Source: Polynucleobacter sp. MWH-Jannik1A5 | GTDB lineage: Bacteria; Pseudomonadota; Gammaproteobacteria; Burkholderiales; Burkholderiaceae | Length of the DNA stretch: 64,000 nucleotides | Reading direction: 5' to 3' | Assembly (NCBI RefSeq): GCF_018881795.1 | Contig: NZ_JACVPQ010000001.1 | Location: forward strand, 186,001 to 250,000 | In this document: positions 4,352 to 10,365 of the stretch, one piece after another | How the letters are laid out: each line of letters begins with the position of its first letter | Position numbering within the stretch: position 1 is the first letter of the stretch | The notes under the pieces: generated by a model | What the model was told of the DNA's origin: nothing | Seen by the model: the letters and a program-made list of their open reading frames with translations, nothing else | The model's database searches: none | Position numbers and translations under genes: made by a program

Positions 4352-6013
4352 ATGGTTTGGCAACAAATTTATGACCCAATTGGGAATATGGTCCTCTCCA
4401 CCCTTCTTGCGGCTATCCCTGTTGTCGTCATGTTGGTTGGATTAGGATTTTTACATTTAAAAGCACATATAGCTGCAGGAGCAGGCTTATTAAGCGCAAT
4501 TATCGTTGCAGTCTTTGTATACGGAATGCCTGGAGAGATGGCAGGTAAAGCCGCTCTCATGGGGGGTCTAACAGGCTTACTCCCAATTGGCTGGATTGTA
4601 TTGAACATCATCTACCTTCACCAACTTACCGAGCAGAATGGTTCATTCAAAATTCTGCAGGACTCAATCGCTGGTATTACTGAAGATCGACGCCTGCAAT
4701 TACTTTTGATTGCCTTCGCTTTTGGCGCCTTCTTTGAGGGTGCTGCAGGTTTTGGTACGCCAGTAGCGGTAACAGCTGCTATTTTGATTGGCCTAGGCTT
4801 CTCACCTCTTGCCGCATCTGGTCTTTCTTTAATTGCCAATACTGCACCGGTAGCCTTTGGTGCGCTCGGTACCCCAATTATTACTTTAGCGAAAGTGCAT
4901 GACTACGATTTAATGGAAATCTCAGCGATGGTTGGGCGTCAACTTCCACTTTTCTCTCTGATCGTTCCCTTCTGGTTGATTTGGGCTTTCGCCGGCAGAA
5001 AAGGTATGATGCAAATTTGGCCGGCTATTCTGGTAACTGGCGCAACATTCGCAATCGCTCAATTCTTGGTATCCAATTACATCGGGCCAGAATTAGTAGA
5101 CGTTATCGCTGCTATTGTTTCAATGGCATCTTTGGTCATGTTCCTAAAAGTTTGGAAACCAAAAGAGATTTGGAGATCTACATCCCTCAAGGGGCATGAA
5201 AGTGATGGAGGCGCATCCATTGCCCCAACTGTCCCAACCGTTCACCCACGTGCAGATGTAATACGAGCTTGGATGCCTTGGTGTATTTTGACTGTGTTCG
5301 TCTTTATTTGGGGCTTGCCAGATGTTAAGAATTACTTAAACAGTATCTTTGCACCTAAATTCCCAATCGAAGGCTTGCATTTGATGGTTGAGAAGATTGC
5401 CCCTGTAGTCTCTAAGCCAACCAAAGAGTCTGCAGTCTATGTATTAAACCTACTATCTGCCACCGGAACTGGGATTCTATTTTCAGCAATCCTAGGCGGC
5501 TTGTTTATGAAGTACAACCCTATTACCCTAGTAACAAGCTATTTCAGAACATTCTGGCTCGTTCGTTACTCATTAATCACTATCGTGTTGATGCTAGGTC
5601 TTGGTACATTGACGCGCTACTCCGGCCTTGATACCACTCTAGGTTTAGCATTTGCTGCTACAGGTATGTTCTATCCATTCTTTGGCACTTTAATGGGATG
5701 GATGGGTGTAGCTCTTACAGGCTCTGATACAGCATCTAACGTTCTATTTGGTGGCATGCAAAAAGTTGCCGCTGAGCAAATTGGCATAAGCCCCAATCTA
5801 ATGGGTGCCGCTAATAGTTCTGGAGGTGTAATGGGCAAAATGATTGATGCACAATCTATTGTTGTCGCCTCAACAGCAACCCGTTGGTTTAATCATGAAG
5901 GCGATATCTTGCGTTATGTCTTCTTCCACTCAGTAGCACTTGCTTGCTTAGTGGGTATTTTTGTGACACTTCAAGCATATGTATATCCATTTACTTTGAT
6001 GGTCATTCAGTAA
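4352..6013 (+). CDS. lctP: L-lactate/glycolate permease (LctP/GlcA family)
   Basis: 553-residue polytopic inner-membrane protein of the lactate permease family, with a dozen or more hydrophobic segments. Family landmarks include EGAAGFGTPVAV, the NTAPVAFGALGTP loop and a C-terminal ANSSGGVMGKMIDAQSIV. These transporters co-import L-lactate, D-lactate or glycolate with protons. Its place right behind glcDEF (same strand, AGGAG eight bases before the ATG) suggests glycolate, as for GlcA in E. coli, though sequence alone cannot separate GlcA from LldP. A strong intrinsic terminator follows the stop. Confidence 0.9.
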   Translation: MVWQQIYDPIGNMVLSTLLAAIPVVVMLVGLGFLHLKAHIAAGAGLLSAIIVAVFVYGMPGEMAGKAALMGGLTGLLPIGWIVLNIIYLHQLTEQNGSFKILQDSIAGITEDRRLQLLLIAFAFGAFFEGAAGFGTPVAVTAAILIGLGFSPLAASGLSLIANTAPVAFGALGTPIITLAKVHDYDLMEISAMVGRQLPLFSLIVPFWLIWAFAGRKGMMQIWPAILVTGATFAIAQFLVSNYIGPELVDVIAAIVSMASLVMFLKVWKPKEIWRSTSLKGHESDGGASIAPTVPTVHPRADVIRAWMPWCILTVFVFIWGLPDVKNYLNSIFAPKFPIEGLHLMVEKIAPVVSKPTKESAVYVLNLLSATGTGILFSAILGGLFMKYNPITLVTSYFRTFWLVRYSLITIVLMLGLGTLTRYSGLDTTLGLAFAATGMFYPFFGTLMGWMGVALTGSDTASNVLFGGMQKVAAEQIGISPNLMGAANSSGGVMGKMIDAQSIVVASTATRWFNHEGDILRYVFFHSVALACLVGIFVTLQAYVYPFTLMVIQ

Positions 6014-6032
6014 CAACTTGTAGCTCCCTTTC

Positions 6033-6059
6033 AAGACCGCCTTGTGCGGTCTTTTTTTT
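6033..6059 (+). terminator. Rho-independent terminator of the glc-lctP transcript
   Basis: An 8-bp stem, AAGACCGC at 6033-6040 pairing with GCGGTCTT at 6046-6053, closes a 5-nt loop and runs into eight T residues. It lies 20 bases after the lctP stop and marks the left edge of the foreign island. Confidence 0.92.
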
Positions 6060-6063
6060 GACT

Positions 6064-6075
6064 TGGCGGAGGAGG
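6064..6075. repeat. Possible decayed attachment-site copy (left end of island)
   Basis: The + strand reads TGGCGGAGGAGG here. The 3' end of the tRNA-Ser gene (read on the + strand from 9820) is TGGCGGAGAGGGAGG. Eight bases match exactly and most of the next few match with a one-base shift. The copy sits exactly between the lctP terminator and the first island gene, as expected for the distal att repeat of an element integrated in the tRNA 3' end. It is short and could be chance. Confidence 0.35.
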
Positions 6076-6131
6076 TTTATAACTGCTTTCTAGGGTCTCT
6101 TATTGGCCGAAAGCGGACTACGGAATCCACT

Positions 6132-7448
6132 CTAAGTTGTAACTTCAGACGCCCTTCTAGCCCTCATCACACCATACCTCGTAGCATCCCAGGCATGGTC
6201 CTCAGCATCGGTATCTACGTCTTCGGGGTTCAATGAATCTGGCGGTAGCTGTGGAATGGTTCTAAGCCAATGCTTACAGGTGTTAAATACTTTCAGCCTT
6301 CCTTCGGCCAATAGGCGAATAATTTCTTGGGCGCCATTTACTCTGCTTCTAGGGGCGTTATATGCCTCTGTCCATTTGACGCCTTTGTCTCTAAAGATCT
6401 GACCAATGGATCGCTCTGCTCCGATCTTTGAAAAGATGGATGGGTCAGCTAGGTTCATCCGATATTCGTATCCGAGGCGTTGATCATGAATTTCAATCTT
6501 TTTGATCTTCTCGGCTACTACCGTTGCATCTTCTCTAGTACCAGTGTTTTCTTTATCACCATATCCATAGAGCTCTCTCCATAAGTAATAGATTCCATCA
6601 TTGGATAAAGCAAACCAGTAGACGGCATATGGCCTGGCGTATCCCCAATCCATTGATCGCCAAACCTTCCAAGTTGGTGGAATAGCAAATGGCTCTACAA
6701 CGTGTTTAGAGGGCTGCCATACCCCTTCCAAGAAACTTCCCACGTGGATATCCCAATCACCCTCTAACCAGGCTCTACGTCTGTTTGGATCACTTAGTGA
6801 CTCTAGACTCATGAGGTAGTTGGGGTCATTTTTGAGAAGGTGGGTGTTCTCATAAATCGTCGAATGAATTCGAACTCTTGGTAGAGAACCATCTTGCTTG
6901 ATGATTCTCCCGGCTGGTATTGCTCCAATCTGAAATCGCTCCTTAACTGATGCATGCCCTACTCCAAATGGATTGCATGTTGCCCTCACCATCCTTGGCA
7001 TTCCAGGGTGTGATGACCTGCAGGTTGAATGCATGGCTTCGTAGAAAGATAGGTTCCGCCAGTTAGTTAACTCTTCAAATCCAAGCCATGGGTACTCATG
7101 GCCGTGATAATTCCAGTAGTCGTCCTCGTTAGCGCCATACCGAAAGTACAGCATCTCTCCTGTAGGCCATTTCCATACATAGTCAGATTCATTGAACTTG
7201 GCACCCGGGAAGATTTGATAGAACCAGCGCTTACTCTTGGCTACTACGTCAGCCAACTGGGGATAAGTCAGGCGAAAAAGTGTTCCGCGCCAATGATCGC
7301 CAAAGCCTCTGCCTACATGCTGGGCATAGCTCATCAGTAAGGTATCAGTCTTACCCCCGCCTCTGGTGCCCTCAAGCAATACCTCATAGACAGGGCAAGT
7401 CAGAAACAAGGTCTGGCTTCCAGGTAATGGTGCCCAGATGGTTTTCAT
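6132..7448 (-). CDS. Phage terminase large subunit (TerL)
   Basis: 438-residue DNA-packaging motor protein: an N-terminal ATPase that drives DNA into the capsid and a C-terminal RNase H-like nuclease that cuts the concatemer. The Walker A motif is EGTRGGGKT (residues 26-34, K33) and the Walker B is WLGFEE (121-126). Nuclease-site acidic residues are visible in SMDWGY (D267), NLADPS (D335) and DAEDHAWDATRYG (D417, D421). All catalytic elements are present and no frameshift is seen, so the gene looks intact although no portal or head gene follows. It ends only about 70 bases from the lctP terminator. It is preceded by the TerS-like gene at a 15-base gap. Confidence 0.93.
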   Translation of the reverse strand: MKTIWAPLPGSQTLFLTCPVYEVLLEGTRGGGKTDTLLMSYAQHVGRGFGDHWRGTLFRLTYPQLADVVAKSKRWFYQIFPGAKFNESDYVWKWPTGEMLYFRYGANEDDYWNYHGHEYPWLGFEELTNWRNLSFYEAMHSTCRSSHPGMPRMVRATCNPFGVGHASVKERFQIGAIPAGRIIKQDGSLPRVRIHSTIYENTHLLKNDPNYLMSLESLSDPNRRRAWLEGDWDIHVGSFLEGVWQPSKHVVEPFAIPPTWKVWRSMDWGYARPYAVYWFALSNDGIYYLWRELYGYGDKENTGTREDATVVAEKIKKIEIHDQRLGYEYRMNLADPSIFSKIGAERSIGQIFRDKGVKWTEAYNAPRSRVNGAQEIIRLLAEGRLKVFNTCKHWLRTIPQLPPDSLNPEDVDTDAEDHAWDATRYGVMRARRASEVTT

Positions 7449-7463
7449 TGGGTTTATAAAGCG

Positions 7464-7868
7464 TTAGTGTTTTGGCTGAGCTGCTCGCTCCCAATCCTCA
7501 ACAGTCATGGCACTTGGTACAACTAACACGCCGCTTTGCAGTGGGGAACCATCTTTGCCCGTGTGCTCAATTGCAGATAGGCGTGGATGCACATAAGGCG
7601 CCGCATACCTTCCAACAGTGGCGGCCATGTTTAGCAGTTTAATTCGAGCTTCACTTGCTGACTCTTTTTCACCGAGATCCTCTTCACGAACATTGCCAGC
7701 ATGCTCATATAGCTGATGCATTACCTTCATCATTACTTCTAATGGAGTAATTCCTTGAGTTGCAACTGCTTCCGCTATCTGACGAGTGCGCTTTGTTAGG
7801 CTGCCAGTCTTTCGCCCCGCCCCAGGTCTAGCTCCACCTTTTGATTTCTTTTGATTGTTTTCAATCAT
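7464..7868 (-). CDS. Terminase small subunit-like protein
   Basis: 134-residue protein just upstream of the large terminase. It opens with a basic segment containing GGARPGAGRKTGS, a motif common at the N-terminus of phage terminase small subunits and related DNA-binding proteins, followed by a predicted helical region. Position before TerL and length suit a TerS, which recognises the packaging (cos/pac) site. The ATG overlaps the stop of the preceding 79-aa gene by four bases. Without a structural match, a general phage DNA-binding role remains possible. Confidence 0.65.
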   Translation of the reverse strand: MIENNQKKSKGGARPGAGRKTGSLTKRTRQIAEAVATQGITPLEVMMKVMHQLYEHAGNVREEDLGEKESASEARIKLLNMAATVGRYAAPYVHPRLSAIEHTGKDGSPLQSGVLVVPSAMTVEDWERAAQPKH

Positions 7869-8104
7869 GGCAACTTGATCATTGTCAGAAGATGGGGCTG
7901 CAATGCAACTGAATCACCGATGGGGTCTTCAAACTCAATGATGATTCTTTGAAATAGATCAAATCGGCTTTGAGCGCCTCGATGCTTAACCACTGTACCT
8001 ATGCGTCCACTGGGAGTCTTCACAATTGAACCTATAGGAAAGTCTTCCATATCGGGTCGATGAATGACGCCCACCATGGCTTGGCTTGATTGCTTAGCCT
8101 GCAT
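7865..8104 (-). CDS. Small phage-associated protein of unknown function
   Basis: 79-residue protein not recognised as a named family. The middle part, GSIVKTPSGRIGTVVKHR, reads as a small beta-barrel (SH3/KOW-like) fold: alternating hydrophobic strands with a turn at SGR, then an amphipathic strand RIIIEFED. It overlaps the DUF1376 gene upstream (11 bases) and the TerS-like gene downstream (4 bases), so it is embedded in one translationally coupled leftward operon. That coupling is the main evidence that it is real. Confidence 0.6.
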   Translation of the reverse strand: MQAKQSSQAMVGVIHRPDMEDFPIGSIVKTPSGRIGTVVKHRGAQSRFDLFQRIIIEFEDPIGDSVALQPHLLTMIKLP

Positions 8105-8975
8105 TAACTGCCTCCTGACGCTTGCGTAGTTCTACGAAGATTCTGGTTTTGAAGGCGTCATAGCTTTCTGAGCCCTGGGCTCGCATGCCCAACTCCCTTC
8201 CTTTGAGGTCTATCCCCTCATTACTTTTCCACCAGATATCTTCACCTGGATCATTGGATTGACTCTTTCTTCGCATGCCTTTGAGAATGGCCATCACAAA
8301 TCCCACATTAATCGGTGTTGAGCTTGAAGCGCGTCTCCTGGTATCTTTGGCCTGCAAGATGGCATCAGCCACTTCCTTTTCAGAAATATCCAACCTAAGC
8401 ATCTCGTTGATGCGTTCATCATCAAGGGGGATATTGATACCCTCCTTTGCAAAAAGTTGAACTATTTGAGCTGGGCTTAGATTGCTCGTTTCCTCATTTT
8501 TCTTTTCTGCCCCATTGTTTTGTTTGTCTGGTGTATGGAGATTGGTGTTTGGTGTTTGGTGTCTGGTGTTTGGTGAGCATTGCGTTGGCAATGCGTTCGC
8601 ATTGCGATCGCATACGGAAATGGTCGTACTGTCAGACAGTATTTGTTCTACTGATGATGACTGCCAACGACCTTCCGCGCTCCGTCTGGCTTTGATTTGG
8701 CGATCCTTGAACCTTGCTATTTCATGGTCGCAGCGCTCTTGCCTCCAACCATCATCCGTTAGAGTAAAAAATTCATTGAGAACTGAGACCACTGCATTTT
8801 TTTCCTCTTTAGACCTAGCATTTATTAATCTCTGGACGATCTTCACATCTGCAGGAAGTGGCTTCTCTGTAGCGTAGTACTTTCTGATCAGGCGACTATA
8901 GGTAGCGTCCTCGATAAAGGTGAGATGTGCTGTTGCTTCTGCATAATCTCCAATGTGATGCTCGTAGTAATTCAT
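8094..8975 (-). CDS. DUF1376 (YdaU-like) phage replication protein
   Basis: 293-residue protein. The first 100 residues are a DUF1376/YdaU domain (MNYYEHHIGDYAEAT, then FIEDATYSRLIRKYY), found at the start of many phage replication-initiator-like proteins. A low-complexity linker (about residues 105-160, rich in S, T, N, P, Q) joins it to a C-terminal helical part with a repeated-helix look and a basic region, GMRRKSQ. The start ATG has GGAGA about 10 bases upstream on the minus strand. It begins the leftward phage operon. The DNA of the linker is packed with direct and inverted repeats (8529-8641), as in lambdoid O genes that contain their own origin. The replication role is inferred from the family. 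Confidence 0.8.
   Translation of the reverse strand: MNYYEHHIGDYAEATAHLTFIEDATYSRLIRKYYATEKPLPADVKIVQRLINARSKEEKNAVVSVLNEFFTLTDDGWRQERCDHEIARFKDRQIKARRSAEGRWQSSSVEQILSDSTTISVCDRNANALPTQCSPNTRHQTPNTNLHTPDKQNNGAEKKNEETSNLSPAQIVQLFAKEGINIPLDDERINEMLRLDISEKEVADAILQAKDTRRRASSSTPINVGFVMAILKGMRRKSQSNDPGEDIWWKSNEGIDLKGRELGMRAQGSESYDAFKTRIFVELRKRQEAVNAG
8529..8577. repeat. Seven tandem 7-bp repeats (iteron-like) inside the DUF1376 gene
   Basis: On the + strand seven units follow each other without gaps: TGGTGTA, TGGAGAT, TGGTGTT, TGGTGTT, TGGTGTC, TGGTGTT, TGGTGAG. Three are identical and the rest differ by one to three bases. The 7-bp period does not follow codons, so three units make a 7-residue protein repeat (TPNT- and HTP-like). 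Such an array can bind an initiator protein or can be a slippage microsatellite. Confidence 0.85.
8577..8641. repeat. Alternating inverted heptamers and a 15-bp palindrome next to the tandem array
   Basis: GCATTGC at 8577-8583, its complement GCAATGC at 8588-8594 and GCATTGC again at 8599-8605 are spaced exactly 11 bp apart, about one helical turn, in alternating orientation. A GATCGCAT follows. At 8627-8641 lies TACTGTC-A-GACAGTA, a perfect palindrome. All fall within the DUF1376 linker coding region, directly beside the 7-bp repeats. Together they look like a protein-binding or origin region. Confidence 0.8.
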
Positions 8976-9093
8976 TTAAAACAGTCTCCGTAGCGTTTTT
9001 TTTCTTGCGTAAATTAATTAATGCAAGAGATGAATCTAACAATCGGAAAGCGTATCGTCAAACCTGTTTTTTCTGAATTTATTTTGAATTTAT

Positions 9094-9216
9094 TTATCTA
9101 CTAATTCGCTGTAATCCTTCTTTAAGAAATTCGATATGCATTATTAATTCTTTTGAAGTGTTTATTGATCTATGTATGTCCACCACTCTCCTGATGCCAT
9201 CAGAAATTACTGACAA
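9094..9216 (-). CDS. Possible 40-aa small protein (TTG start)
   Basis: A short minus-strand frame from TTG at 9216 to TAA at 9094 encodes a helix-rich 40-residue peptide beginning MSVISDGIRRVVDIHRS and ending EGLQRISR. AAAGGG lies 8 bases upstream of the TTG. It would head the leftward operon, 118 bases before the DUF1376 start. The composition (amphipathic, charged) is protein-like despite AT-rich DNA, but there is no homology support and the start is weak, so this is a candidate only. Confidence 0.3.
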   Translation of the reverse strand: MSVISDGIRRVVDIHRSINTSKELIMHIEFLKEGLQRISR

Positions 9217-9308
9217 GGCTGTAGCCCTTTACTGGATTGACTTGTATCACTTATATGAATAAATATTTTTTTGTAGGCCAAAAATAATTTGTGCTCGGAA
9301 GATGGGTA

Positions 9309-9348
9309 TTGACTTTTGATTGACCATCAAAATTTCATTGACTACATT
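9309..9348 (+). promoter_or_regulatory. Candidate promoter/operator for the small ORF-alpA pair
   Basis: TTGAC occurs three times (9309, 9320, 9338). TTGACC at 9320-9325 with TACATT at 9343-9348 gives a 17-bp spacer. Overlapping this -35 is a perfect inverted repeat TTTTGAT-TGACC-ATCAAAA (9314-9332), a plausible operator for a repressor or for AlpA. Position, about 55-95 bases before the first rightward ATG, fits a promoter. Confidence 0.45.
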
Positions 9349-9403
9349 GCTCTTCAGTAGCATACATATTCATACATAACATGACAAGATGGAGAACAAT
9401 TTA

Positions 9404-9532
9404 ATGGTAGCGATTCGACTTTACAGTTTGTACCGTTCATACGGTTACACGAAGATGAGTTCAGCAAAAATGGCTTTGCAGGTTTATCGGAAAAATATGA
9501 AGCGCGCCCGTCAAGGAGGTCGTCATGAGTAA
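9404..9532 (+). CDS. 42-aa basic peptide upstream of AlpA
   Basis: A 42-residue ORF starting ATGGTAGCG with GGAGA eight bases upstream, and ending TAA at 9530-9532, eight bases inside the AlpA gene, so the two are translationally coupled. The peptide (start MVAIRLYSLYRSYGYTKMSS, end RARQGGRHE) is rich in Arg, Lys and Tyr with an SSAKMALQVYRKNMKRA helix, so it is strongly basic and likely binds nucleic acid or a partner protein. No known family is recognised. Good ribosome site, coupling and codon-level sense make it likely real. Confidence 0.6.
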   Translation: MVAIRLYSLYRSYGYTKMSSAKMALQVYRKNMKRARQGGRHE

Positions 9533-9722
9533 TTCAAATTCAGAGGTGACCTTATTGAGAATTCCACAGATTCTGGAAGTAATGCCAATTTCTAAATCCA
9601 AGTTTTGGCTAATGGTTCAAAAAGGTGAGTTTCCGAAACCCATCAAAATTGGGAGATCCTCTTTCTGGACTATTGATCAGGTTCAGGGATTTATCCGAGA
9701 AAGAACACGAGAGTCCAACTAA
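9525..9722 (+). CDS. AlpA family excisionase-like transcriptional regulator
   Basis: 65-residue MerR-like winged-helix protein. The order LLRIPQILEVMPISKSKFWL, then KGEFPKPIKIG, RSSFW, and a C-terminal helix with VQGFIRERTRE is the AlpA/phage-excisionase pattern: helix-turn-helix, then the wing with the FPKPIKIG turn. AlpA proteins control integrase or excision genes of P4-like and other islands. AAGGAGGT gives an ideal ribosome site 5-6 bases before the ATG. It is the last island gene before tRNA-Ser. No integrase is found beside it, which is odd for this regulator. Confidence 0.88.
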   Translation: MSNSNSEVTLLRIPQILEVMPISKSKFWLMVQKGEFPKPIKIGRSSFWTIDQVQGFIRERTRESN

Positions 9723-9744
9723 ACCCAATCCCAAGCAATGTTTT

Positions 9745-9768
9745 GCTGGTGGGTAGGCTGGTGGGTAG
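9745..9768. repeat. Two perfect tandem 12-bp repeats near the tRNA end
   Basis: GCTGGTGGGTAG is present twice back to back (9745-9756 and 9757-9768), between the alpA stop and the tRNA-Ser 3' end. Short direct repeats in this position are typical of integrase arm-type binding sites flanking an att core. That role is inferred; no integrase is present to match. Confidence 0.75.
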
Positions 9769-9777
9769 AGAGTCGCC

Positions 9778-9808
9778 AAAAAGTTAGAGCCCCGTAAATA
9801 GGGGCTCT
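9778..9808 (-). terminator. Rho-independent terminator downstream of tRNA-Ser
   Basis: AGAGCCCC (9786-9793) pairs with GGGGCTCT (9801-9808) across a 7-nt loop. Read on the minus strand it begins about a dozen bases after the tRNA 3' end and runs into AACTTTTT. It probably ends the tRNA transcript and may also shield the island from it. Confidence 0.75.
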
Positions 9809-9819
9809 CAGGTCGATAC

Positions 9820-9909
<90 letters not shown>

Positions 9910-9957
9910 GGTGTGTCTAGGATAAAACTTGAACGTTGATCTTGCCTGCCCTTCAAG

Positions 9958-10365
9958 CTATTGGTCGCAAACGCCTGTCATAAGGAGTGCACCAGAAAAG
10001 AATCCAAAAGGCTTCTTACCGTCTTTTGCAAACCCTTCGATGCTGAGATAGTCCACAAAGGCACCATTCTTACCTGCAGACTTTTGCGTCCAGATGACTT
10101 TGTAAGCATTACCGTTGCTTCCAGATGCGATGACTTTTGGTTTCCCTAAAGAATCCATCACATCTCCAACCACTTCCCCAGTTTTCTTGACCACTGCAAA
10201 TTCTTGGCCAATTCTGGGGCTATCTTTCACGATATCCAGCTCTCCATTGCTTTTAATGTAGGCATCACTCAAAACCTCGCATCGATAGGTTTTTTCAGTC
10301 GCCAAAACAACTGGAGAAATCAATGCCGAGCAAATGAGGGTTAGAAATAATGAGAGCTTATTCAT
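9958..10365 (-). CDS. Secreted protein of unknown function
   Basis: 135-residue protein with a classic Sec signal peptide: MNKLS, a hydrophobic core, then cleavage near VLA/TEK at residues 22-23. The mature part has two cysteines, in YRCEV near its start and GVCDQ at the very end, which could form one disulfide in the periplasm. It is rich in beta-type segments (GQEFAVVKKTGEVVGDV). I do not recognise the family. It follows serS by 11 bases on the same strand, which suggests co-transcription but gives no clue to function. Confidence 0.7.
   Translation of the reverse strand: MNKLSLFLTLICSALISPVVLATEKTYRCEVLSDAYIKSNGELDIVKDSPRIGQEFAVVKKTGEVVGDVMDSLGKPKVIASGSNGNAYKVIWTQKSAGKNGAFVDYLSIEGFAKDGKKPFGFFSGALLMTGVCDQ

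Follow-up and report, generated by a model that had tools for sequence, protein, structure and literature searches.

The linker of a DUF1376 gene in the window (the whole stretch of DNA that we analysed, 64,000 nucleotides, positions 186001-250000 of contig 1 in a 2.0-Mb genome) is, in our judgement, very probably the replication origin of a phage-like element and would be bound by the initiator that the same gene encodes, although we have no binding or replication data. The initial annotation had proposed that this might be an origin to which the gene's own product binds, and comparison alone now supports it through the conservation of the linker DNA, its placement after the DUF1376 domain, and iterons matched to an adjoining protein segment. 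As far as sequences can establish it, the comparison demonstrates selection at the DNA level, the order of two repeat elements (E1, then E2), their strand, the coupling of the protein segment to E1, and, in some records, the position of the gene. The parts of the gene are as follows, in the sense direction after the gene itself.

8094-8975, minus strand: DUF1376 gene that encodes a putative replication initiator (293 aa) and contains its proposed origin
8715-8972, minus strand: DUF1376 domain, predicted winged helix (PF07120 match and AlphaFold model)
8661-8708, minus strand: basic segment of type SAxxRW, KDRQIKARRSAEGRWQ, which closes the long helix (residues 90-105)
8577-8613, minus strand: E1, three iterons with 11-bp spacing; on the minus strand the units are TGCGATCGCA (8603-8612), TGCGAACGCA (8592-8601) and TGCCAACGCA (8581-8590)
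8529-8574, minus strand: E2, seven tandem heptads ACCANNN on the sense strand (six ACCA, one TCCA)
8512-8528, minus strand: short A-rich stretch GACAAACAAAACAATGG behind E2, by direct reading
8250-8492, minus strand: C-terminal helical domain, possibly DnaD-like (weak)

Re-reading and Tandem Repeats Finder bore out the repeat positions and numbers first reported for 8529-8613. The program returned one array at 8525-8575 (period 7, 7.3 copies, 81% matches) and another at 8577-8613 (period 11, 3.4 copies, 84% matches), and the three GCATTGC/GCAATGC units do stand at exact 11-bp steps (GCATTGC at 8577, GCAATGC at 8588, GCATTGC at 8599). The count of seven tandem 7-bp repeats held as well, but the array is imperfect, one unit being TCCA. 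We correct the strand: the repeats are to be read on the minus strand, as ACCA heptads and TGCGnnCGCA dyads. In this sense direction the linker runs from a palindrome through ATGCGATCGCAATGCGAACGCATTGCCAACGCAATGCTC and the seven heptads to the A-rich stretch. None of 3000 synonymous shuffles of the 293-codon gene reached its lag-7 score (29/35), and 2 of 3000 reached its lag-11 score (20/24). The pattern ACCANNNACCANNNACCANNNACCA occurs in its own 2.0-Mb genome at this site only, as two overlapping matches; the reversed-pattern control was uninformative, the reversed string being identical. The 15-bp palindrome described at 8627-8641 has two perfect 7-bp arms with one unpaired base between them, but it is weak and not conserved: in relatives one arm is often broken, or the palindrome is absent, and its score was reached by 11/500 synonymous shuffles. 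We dropped it as a part of the origin.

The window gene matches PF07120 over residues 2-87 (E 7e-30; 103.7 bits vs a curated cut-off of 30.1). Its PHROG matches include 'primosomal protein' families, ranked after two families of unknown function, and a weak match over residues 132-236 to phrog_186, a DnaD-like helicase loader (E 0.0047). At E 0.01, the lambda O family was absent among its Pfam and PHROG matches and RepA_N among its Pfam matches. The model of the whole protein (mean pLDDT 75) predicts a winged-helix-like domain, a C-terminal part made of helices and, between them, a linker of low confidence (residues 109-164). Residues 1-109 modelled alone with AlphaFold reached a mean pLDDT of 84.8, and in both models the long helix extends to residue 105-107. 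Structural matches were weak throughout. The first one listed for the whole-protein model was DnaD (Z 8.0, rmsd 17.1 over 137 residues), and the domain model gave 4pql (Z 5.2, rmsd 3.2, 75 residues), 5kbj (Z 5.0, rmsd 3.8, 78 residues) and 4pt7 (Z 4.8). We take 4pql and 5kbj to be RepA_N proteins; these initiator matches ranked no better than ORC2 and unrelated winged helices. In the available part of PMC7145576, 4pt7 is named as a RepA_N protein. Foldseek against the PDB gave no match at E <=0.001 for either model, lambda O did not appear among the structural matches, which excludes nothing, and the viral models nearest to the domain were DUF1376 proteins, one of them named a replication protein. 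The comparison of predicted folds supports a DNA-binding fold, and no more than that.

Within the family one layout recurs: a DUF1376 winged helix, a basic segment, clade-specific iterons (E1) and then sense-strand ACCARWM heptads (E2). The iterons upstream of the heptads differ by clade and comprise ATGCGnnCGCAT; TGTCACG or CCTGCAACG; AAACCCA/TGGGTTT; CGTTCAAC; CACGA/TCGTG; ATCTGA/TCAGAT; and GGGTAGC/GATAGCCC. Their density is 6-20 per kb in the linkers vs 0-0.4 per kb in the flanks, and the class A motif reaches 18.8 per kb in linkers vs 0.00-0.01 in flanks (49 genes). From 163 heptad genes we dropped 3 short domain matches and left out 5 without a segment type; in the 155 that remained, seven segment types predicted seven E1 classes in 144 cases, against a mean of 28.9 and a maximum of 44 in 2000 permutations. 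The class rules were drawn by eye on this fitted set and then frozen. Held-out set 1 came from 199 new loci found with three other queries, and 63 of 190 genes were retained after removal of any that shared at least 25% of 12-mers with the fitted set or with each other. Under the frozen rules the predicted iterons were present in 52 of its 57 typed genes (permutation maximum 27); the 5 misses were all unclassed, none falling in another class. Held-out set 2, from a last scan of 80 loci, left 7 genes that differed from every earlier one; each has a segment of type LF, and B/C iterons were present in 7/7. Set 1 covers classes D, E, F, G and H, so that the two sets take in these and B/C, while the window's own class A is absent from them. 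Since segment type predicts iteron class, the segment KDRQIKARRSAEGRWQ is our proposed, still putative, iteron reader.

In a rapidly built tree of the DUF1376 domain, which rests on about 86 residues and gives rough counts only, there were at least 49 changes of iteron class and 51 of segment type. On supported branches, class A provided 8 independent pairs, an average of 7.7 of which changed together and none in the opposite sense (median p 0.008), and class D provided 7 pairs, 6 of them changing together (p 0.03). The other classes had 3-5 pairs each, too few to reach 0.05, and for class G a few of 200 pairings included a pair that changed in the opposite sense. The domains of L172 and L174 are 85% identical over 88 residues, yet their segments and E1 differ. 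The coupling may in part reflect inheritance or exchange as one block, because segment and iterons adjoin. A block that carries a matching pair would nevertheless be the expected look of a binding module, by analogy with pPR9 and pSK41; according to the accessible part of PMC5703833, pPR9 represents a natural swap of the binding domain together with the origin.

A partition or operator site, at which binding of E1 would serve autoregulation or segregation of the element, has some appeal here, as the E1 dyads look like operators and the segment-iteron code requires only binding, not replication. We nonetheless consider it unlikely: few E1 motifs occur within the 1.5-kb flanks, the promoter side included (0-0.37 vs 6-20 per kb), and such a site would leave E2 and the O-like gene order unexplained.

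This gene order can be read in named phages and plasmids. In all 11 phage or plasmid records that we opened (phiAC-1, Mcat21, Vibrio 1.183.O, BA3, IFTN2, Rb1, Scipio, CV-1-33, P19250A, pSWBY1 and a P. aeruginosa element; 9 taken from 83 phage records and 2 from 9 plasmid records), iterons followed by ACCA repeats were seen by eye. A CII-type regulator is annotated upstream of the DUF1376 gene in three of the 11 (IFTN2, Rb1 and the P. aeruginosa element), and a helicase or ATP-binding protein lies directly downstream in three (Scipio, the P. aeruginosa element and pSWBY1); the annotation of 6/11 records has neither. The order is CI-CII-DUF1376 in Rb1, DUF1376-replicative helicase in Scipio and, in full, Cro/CI, CII, YdaU family, primase/helicase in the P. 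aeruginosa element. In several phage or plasmid records the DUF1376 gene holds the place of lambda O. The spacing of the repeats varies: those of Bordetella phage IFTN2 (L496:2501-3319) are mostly 6 bp apart, not 7 bp, and those of the P. aeruginosa element are irregularly spaced.

That the linker might instead be a DNA packaging site (pac/cos) is suggested by the terminase genes that come next in the window's element, where a terL homologue (6132-7448) and a putative terS, assigned by place, lie directly downstream; we give this very little credence, as Rb1, Scipio and the P. aeruginosa element have the layout next to genes for CII or a helicase, and the stretches displayed for them contain no terminase.

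The window's element is small. Its cassette (6132-9722) consists of AlpA, set beside a row formed by DUF1376, a 79-aa gene, a 134-aa gene and terL, and lies between a permease-like gene and a tRNA-Ser (9820-9909). The 134-aa gene is terS by place only and belongs to a PHROG of unknown function. The AlpA/DUF1376/terL cassette recurs in most of the Polynucleobacter-type loci compared, with terL mostly 86-98% identical across cassettes and the DUF1376 gene 44-96%. No integrase was recognised in the window's element, and no attachment-site repeats of at least 10 bp were found between 9700-9960 and 5800-7000; the cassette may be a minimal satellite or a remnant. Upstream of the cassette, Pfam identified a GmrSD restriction gene in one relative (L020:413-2209) and type I specificity subunits in two others (L041:426-2120 and L061:458-2215), as if the element carried defence cargo in these three loci.

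The heptads were surveyed in a sample chosen independently of the motif, in which 195 complete genes were reduced to 112 PF07120 representatives. At least three sense-strand ACCA heptads were present in 57/112, and none of the 112 had as many on the antisense strand or in either the upstream or the downstream flank (up to 1.5 kb). In held-out set 1, 58/63 genes had at least three heptads, again with none antisense or in the flanks; in held-out set 2 only 3/7 did. The 55 representatives without three ACCA heptads include, by eye, many from distant clades such as YdaU-like genes, and none were seen by eye in E. coli YdaU itself; some nearer relatives (e.g., L154, L158, L164 and L167) have degenerate heptads only. 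The consensus of 272 units is ACCA followed by A/G (0.89), A/T (0.83) and A/C (0.96), the ACCA part having served to call the units. Period 7 was prominent in 55/112 genes vs 1.8% of shuffles and 0/112 for each flank; three of the 55 are not ACCA arrays (one run of N, plus L192 and L476). Other periods were prominent in fewer genes (14 in 35, 11 in 24, 12 in 16 and 6 in 13 of the 112), the remaining ones from 4 to 15 in 1-3 genes each; the codon multiples 6 and 12 stand out in 13/112 and 16/112 genes, with 7.4% and 6.5% in shuffles.

Scans of DNA blind to protein led to the same genes. The 20-base pattern GCRATGCTCACCAGACACCA fell within DUF1376 ORFs at 55/55 loci. The heptad pattern ACCAAGAACCAAGAACCA matched at least 120 loci, and 103 of the 120 listed lay on the sense strand of a DUF1376 ORF, such ORFs making up 7.8% of the bases in that scan (both strands' reading). 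None of the other 17 was antisense to a DUF1376 ORF. These 17 loci, all outside the ORFs found by profile, include L254 and L273, taken up below; L252, L277 and L300 resemble, by eye, cut or broken members, and the others are unrelated. The looser pattern CACCANNCACCANNCACCA was less specific, with 106 new loci, 30 in DUF1376 ORFs and 76 outside, many of them unrelated low-complexity arrays. DUF1376/YdaU genes occurred in 21/299, 29/199, 16/250 and 15/289 sampled genomes. Repeated 8-mers were also tried as a sign of an origin in the linkers of 54 heptad-free genes (36 per kb vs 8 per kb shuffled), and were rejected as uninformative because the C-terminal part of heptad-free genes was likewise raised (37 vs 11). 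Heptads may not be limited to DUF1376 genes: L254:2436-2586 belongs to a gene that looks like an initiator, has no significant match in Pfam (Lin1244_N, E 0.18) and carries its own TAACGCGTTA dyads followed by ACCA heptads. A further gene family (L273:10005-10155, L405:3923-4073 and L408:294-444; in L273 with a weak DUF1376 match, E 0.034) has GTCACGCGTGAC-like dyads and ACCAAG(C/A) heptads.

Homologues without the repeats, or a copy number varying as in a plain microsatellite, had been named beforehand as results that would refute an origin. Both were met in part, in that some of the homologues are free of heptads and copy number varies, but there were no antisense or flank arrays of three or more units and the array is conserved. 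A plain heptanucleotide microsatellite, like the short tandem repeats of many genomes, would account for a copy number that ranges from 3 to 9 and for the extra copies of the peptide block in one relative (L011). We regard it as very improbable, given that the array is found in its own genome at this site only, that three or more copies occur in the sense strand only, and that 103 of the 120 matches listed in the protein-blind scan fall within DUF1376 ORFs.

The check that the initial annotation had called for, a comparison of the linker DNA among homologues, favours an origin: the DNA is kept while amino acids and reading frames change. In IMG/VR, 126 stretches encode a relative, and we used the best 80 of the 126 (identity 96 to 35%); the array is kept across this range of 35-96% protein identity. 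Codons were compared in 55 distinct full-length sequences (the window gene and 54 relatives), in pairs with at most 90% identity. Where residues were shared, the same codon was used at a frequency of 0.90-0.93 in codons 121-160, compared with 0.35-0.66 per ten-codon window outside this stretch and 0.76 in the first ten codons. Among 17 sequences with less than 85% mutual identity, codons 121-155 were above the rest in 136/136 pairs (mean 0.86 vs 0.48), and all 8 disjoint pairs agreed; amino acid identity was lower there than elsewhere (0.53 vs 0.61). The junction AATGCTMACCA was read in all three frames, in 13, 6 and 2 of its 21 occurrences in unbiased representatives and in 29, 9 and 2 of all occurrences. 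The synonymous constraint in the linker and the reading of AATGCTMACCA in three frames indicate that selection acts on the DNA, and the three-frame reading means that the peptide cannot explain the conservation. The idea that the low-complexity linker peptide PDTxHQTP is what matters, with the DNA repeats a by-product, can draw on the TxHQTPN peptide repeats of many homologues and yet is hardly credible, as synonymous codons are kept while amino acids vary, one DNA sequence is read in three frames and period 7 is lost in synonymous shuffles (1.8% vs 55/112).

If the linker is an origin bound by its own initiator, we infer that initiator dimers would bind E1 through the winged helix and the basic segment, with the 11-bp spacing of class A aligning the protomers on one face of the DNA. 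From there the complex might spread into, or open, E2 together with the short run of A-rich DNA that follows, and the helicase could be brought in either by the C-terminal domain or by a downstream protein. For E2, the most likely role is opening or helicase loading on one strand, which we infer because it is strand-specific, 85% A+C, joined to E1 without a gap and common to origins with different E1. A 7-bp step covers two thirds of a helical turn, and neighbouring heptads therefore face different ways on the duplex; contacts to a single strand, or wrapped ones, would suit this geometry better than a row along one face. No clear AT-rich region for unwinding was found, which speaks against an origin of the classical kind: the first 20 nt after E2 are 43% A and 60% A+T (57 representatives), and beyond about 20 nt past E2 the A+T content is unremarkable.

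Found in phages and prophages, the DUF1376/YdaU family bears the label of unknown function, and its likely job is now replication initiation. If this is true, many DUF1376 members would be replication initiators, the gene sequence would directly reveal their origins, the code would predict which elements cross-replicate or exclude each other, and the family would provide a natural set for studying how initiator specificity changes, along with a testable general 7-nt repeat. Whether these genes represent a large unnoticed class of phage origins, with at least seven exchangeable segment-iteron pairs set on one strand-specific ACCARWM array and extending beyond DUF1376 (L254), we judge to be evenly balanced; in that event the heptad would add a new type to the elements of origins, one that serves to open the strands or to load the helicase.

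DnaA-trio and plasmid iteron origins likewise consist of duplex binding sites followed by an opened element; the DUF1376 repeat differs in being 7 nt long and A+C-rich, and its opening has not been shown. The open-access literature on DUF1376/YdaU, as far as it was available, held no account of a family-wide segment-iteron code or of the heptad, and the oriJ of Rac is named in PMC3945230 without a location in the part available. Origins inside initiator genes are already known from lambda and pSK41, and a mid-gene origin had been suggested before for Scipio: for Acinetobacter phages Brutus and Scipio, the accessible part of PMC10888812 bases this suggestion in Scipio on 9-20 bp repeats, and offers no family, code, heptad or reading-frame argument. 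In our analysis the Scipio gene matched DUF1376 with 84.3 bits and carried class F iterons and ACCA heptads.

An origin within the initiator gene is, in the available parts of the sources, proven for lambda O and for pSK41 Rep. In the Rep of pSK41/pTZ2162, an N-terminal winged helix binds Rep boxes central in the rep gene (PMC5703833), and RepA_N proteins, PLE RepA among them, have a linker that encodes the origin and DnaD-like domains (PMC5703833, PMC7145576). The DUF1376 gene resembles them in its predicted winged helix, the putative origin within the gene and its possibly DnaD-like domain. It differs in its Pfam match, PF07120, and in occurring mostly in phages and prophages of Proteobacteria; no E2 heptads are described for RepA_N in the portions of these two papers that were available. 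Lambda has inverted-repeat iterons, which bind initiator dimers, inside the O gene of its cro-cII-O-P operon (PMC5043065, available part). DUF1376 genes likewise have their iterons within the putative initiator gene, and the gene order is similar in Rb1 and the P. aeruginosa element. O belongs to another Pfam family, however, and unlike lambda, the DUF1376 genes match a short basic segment to one of seven or more iteron classes and carry an array of 7-bp heptads where lambda has a 40-bp A+T-rich region.
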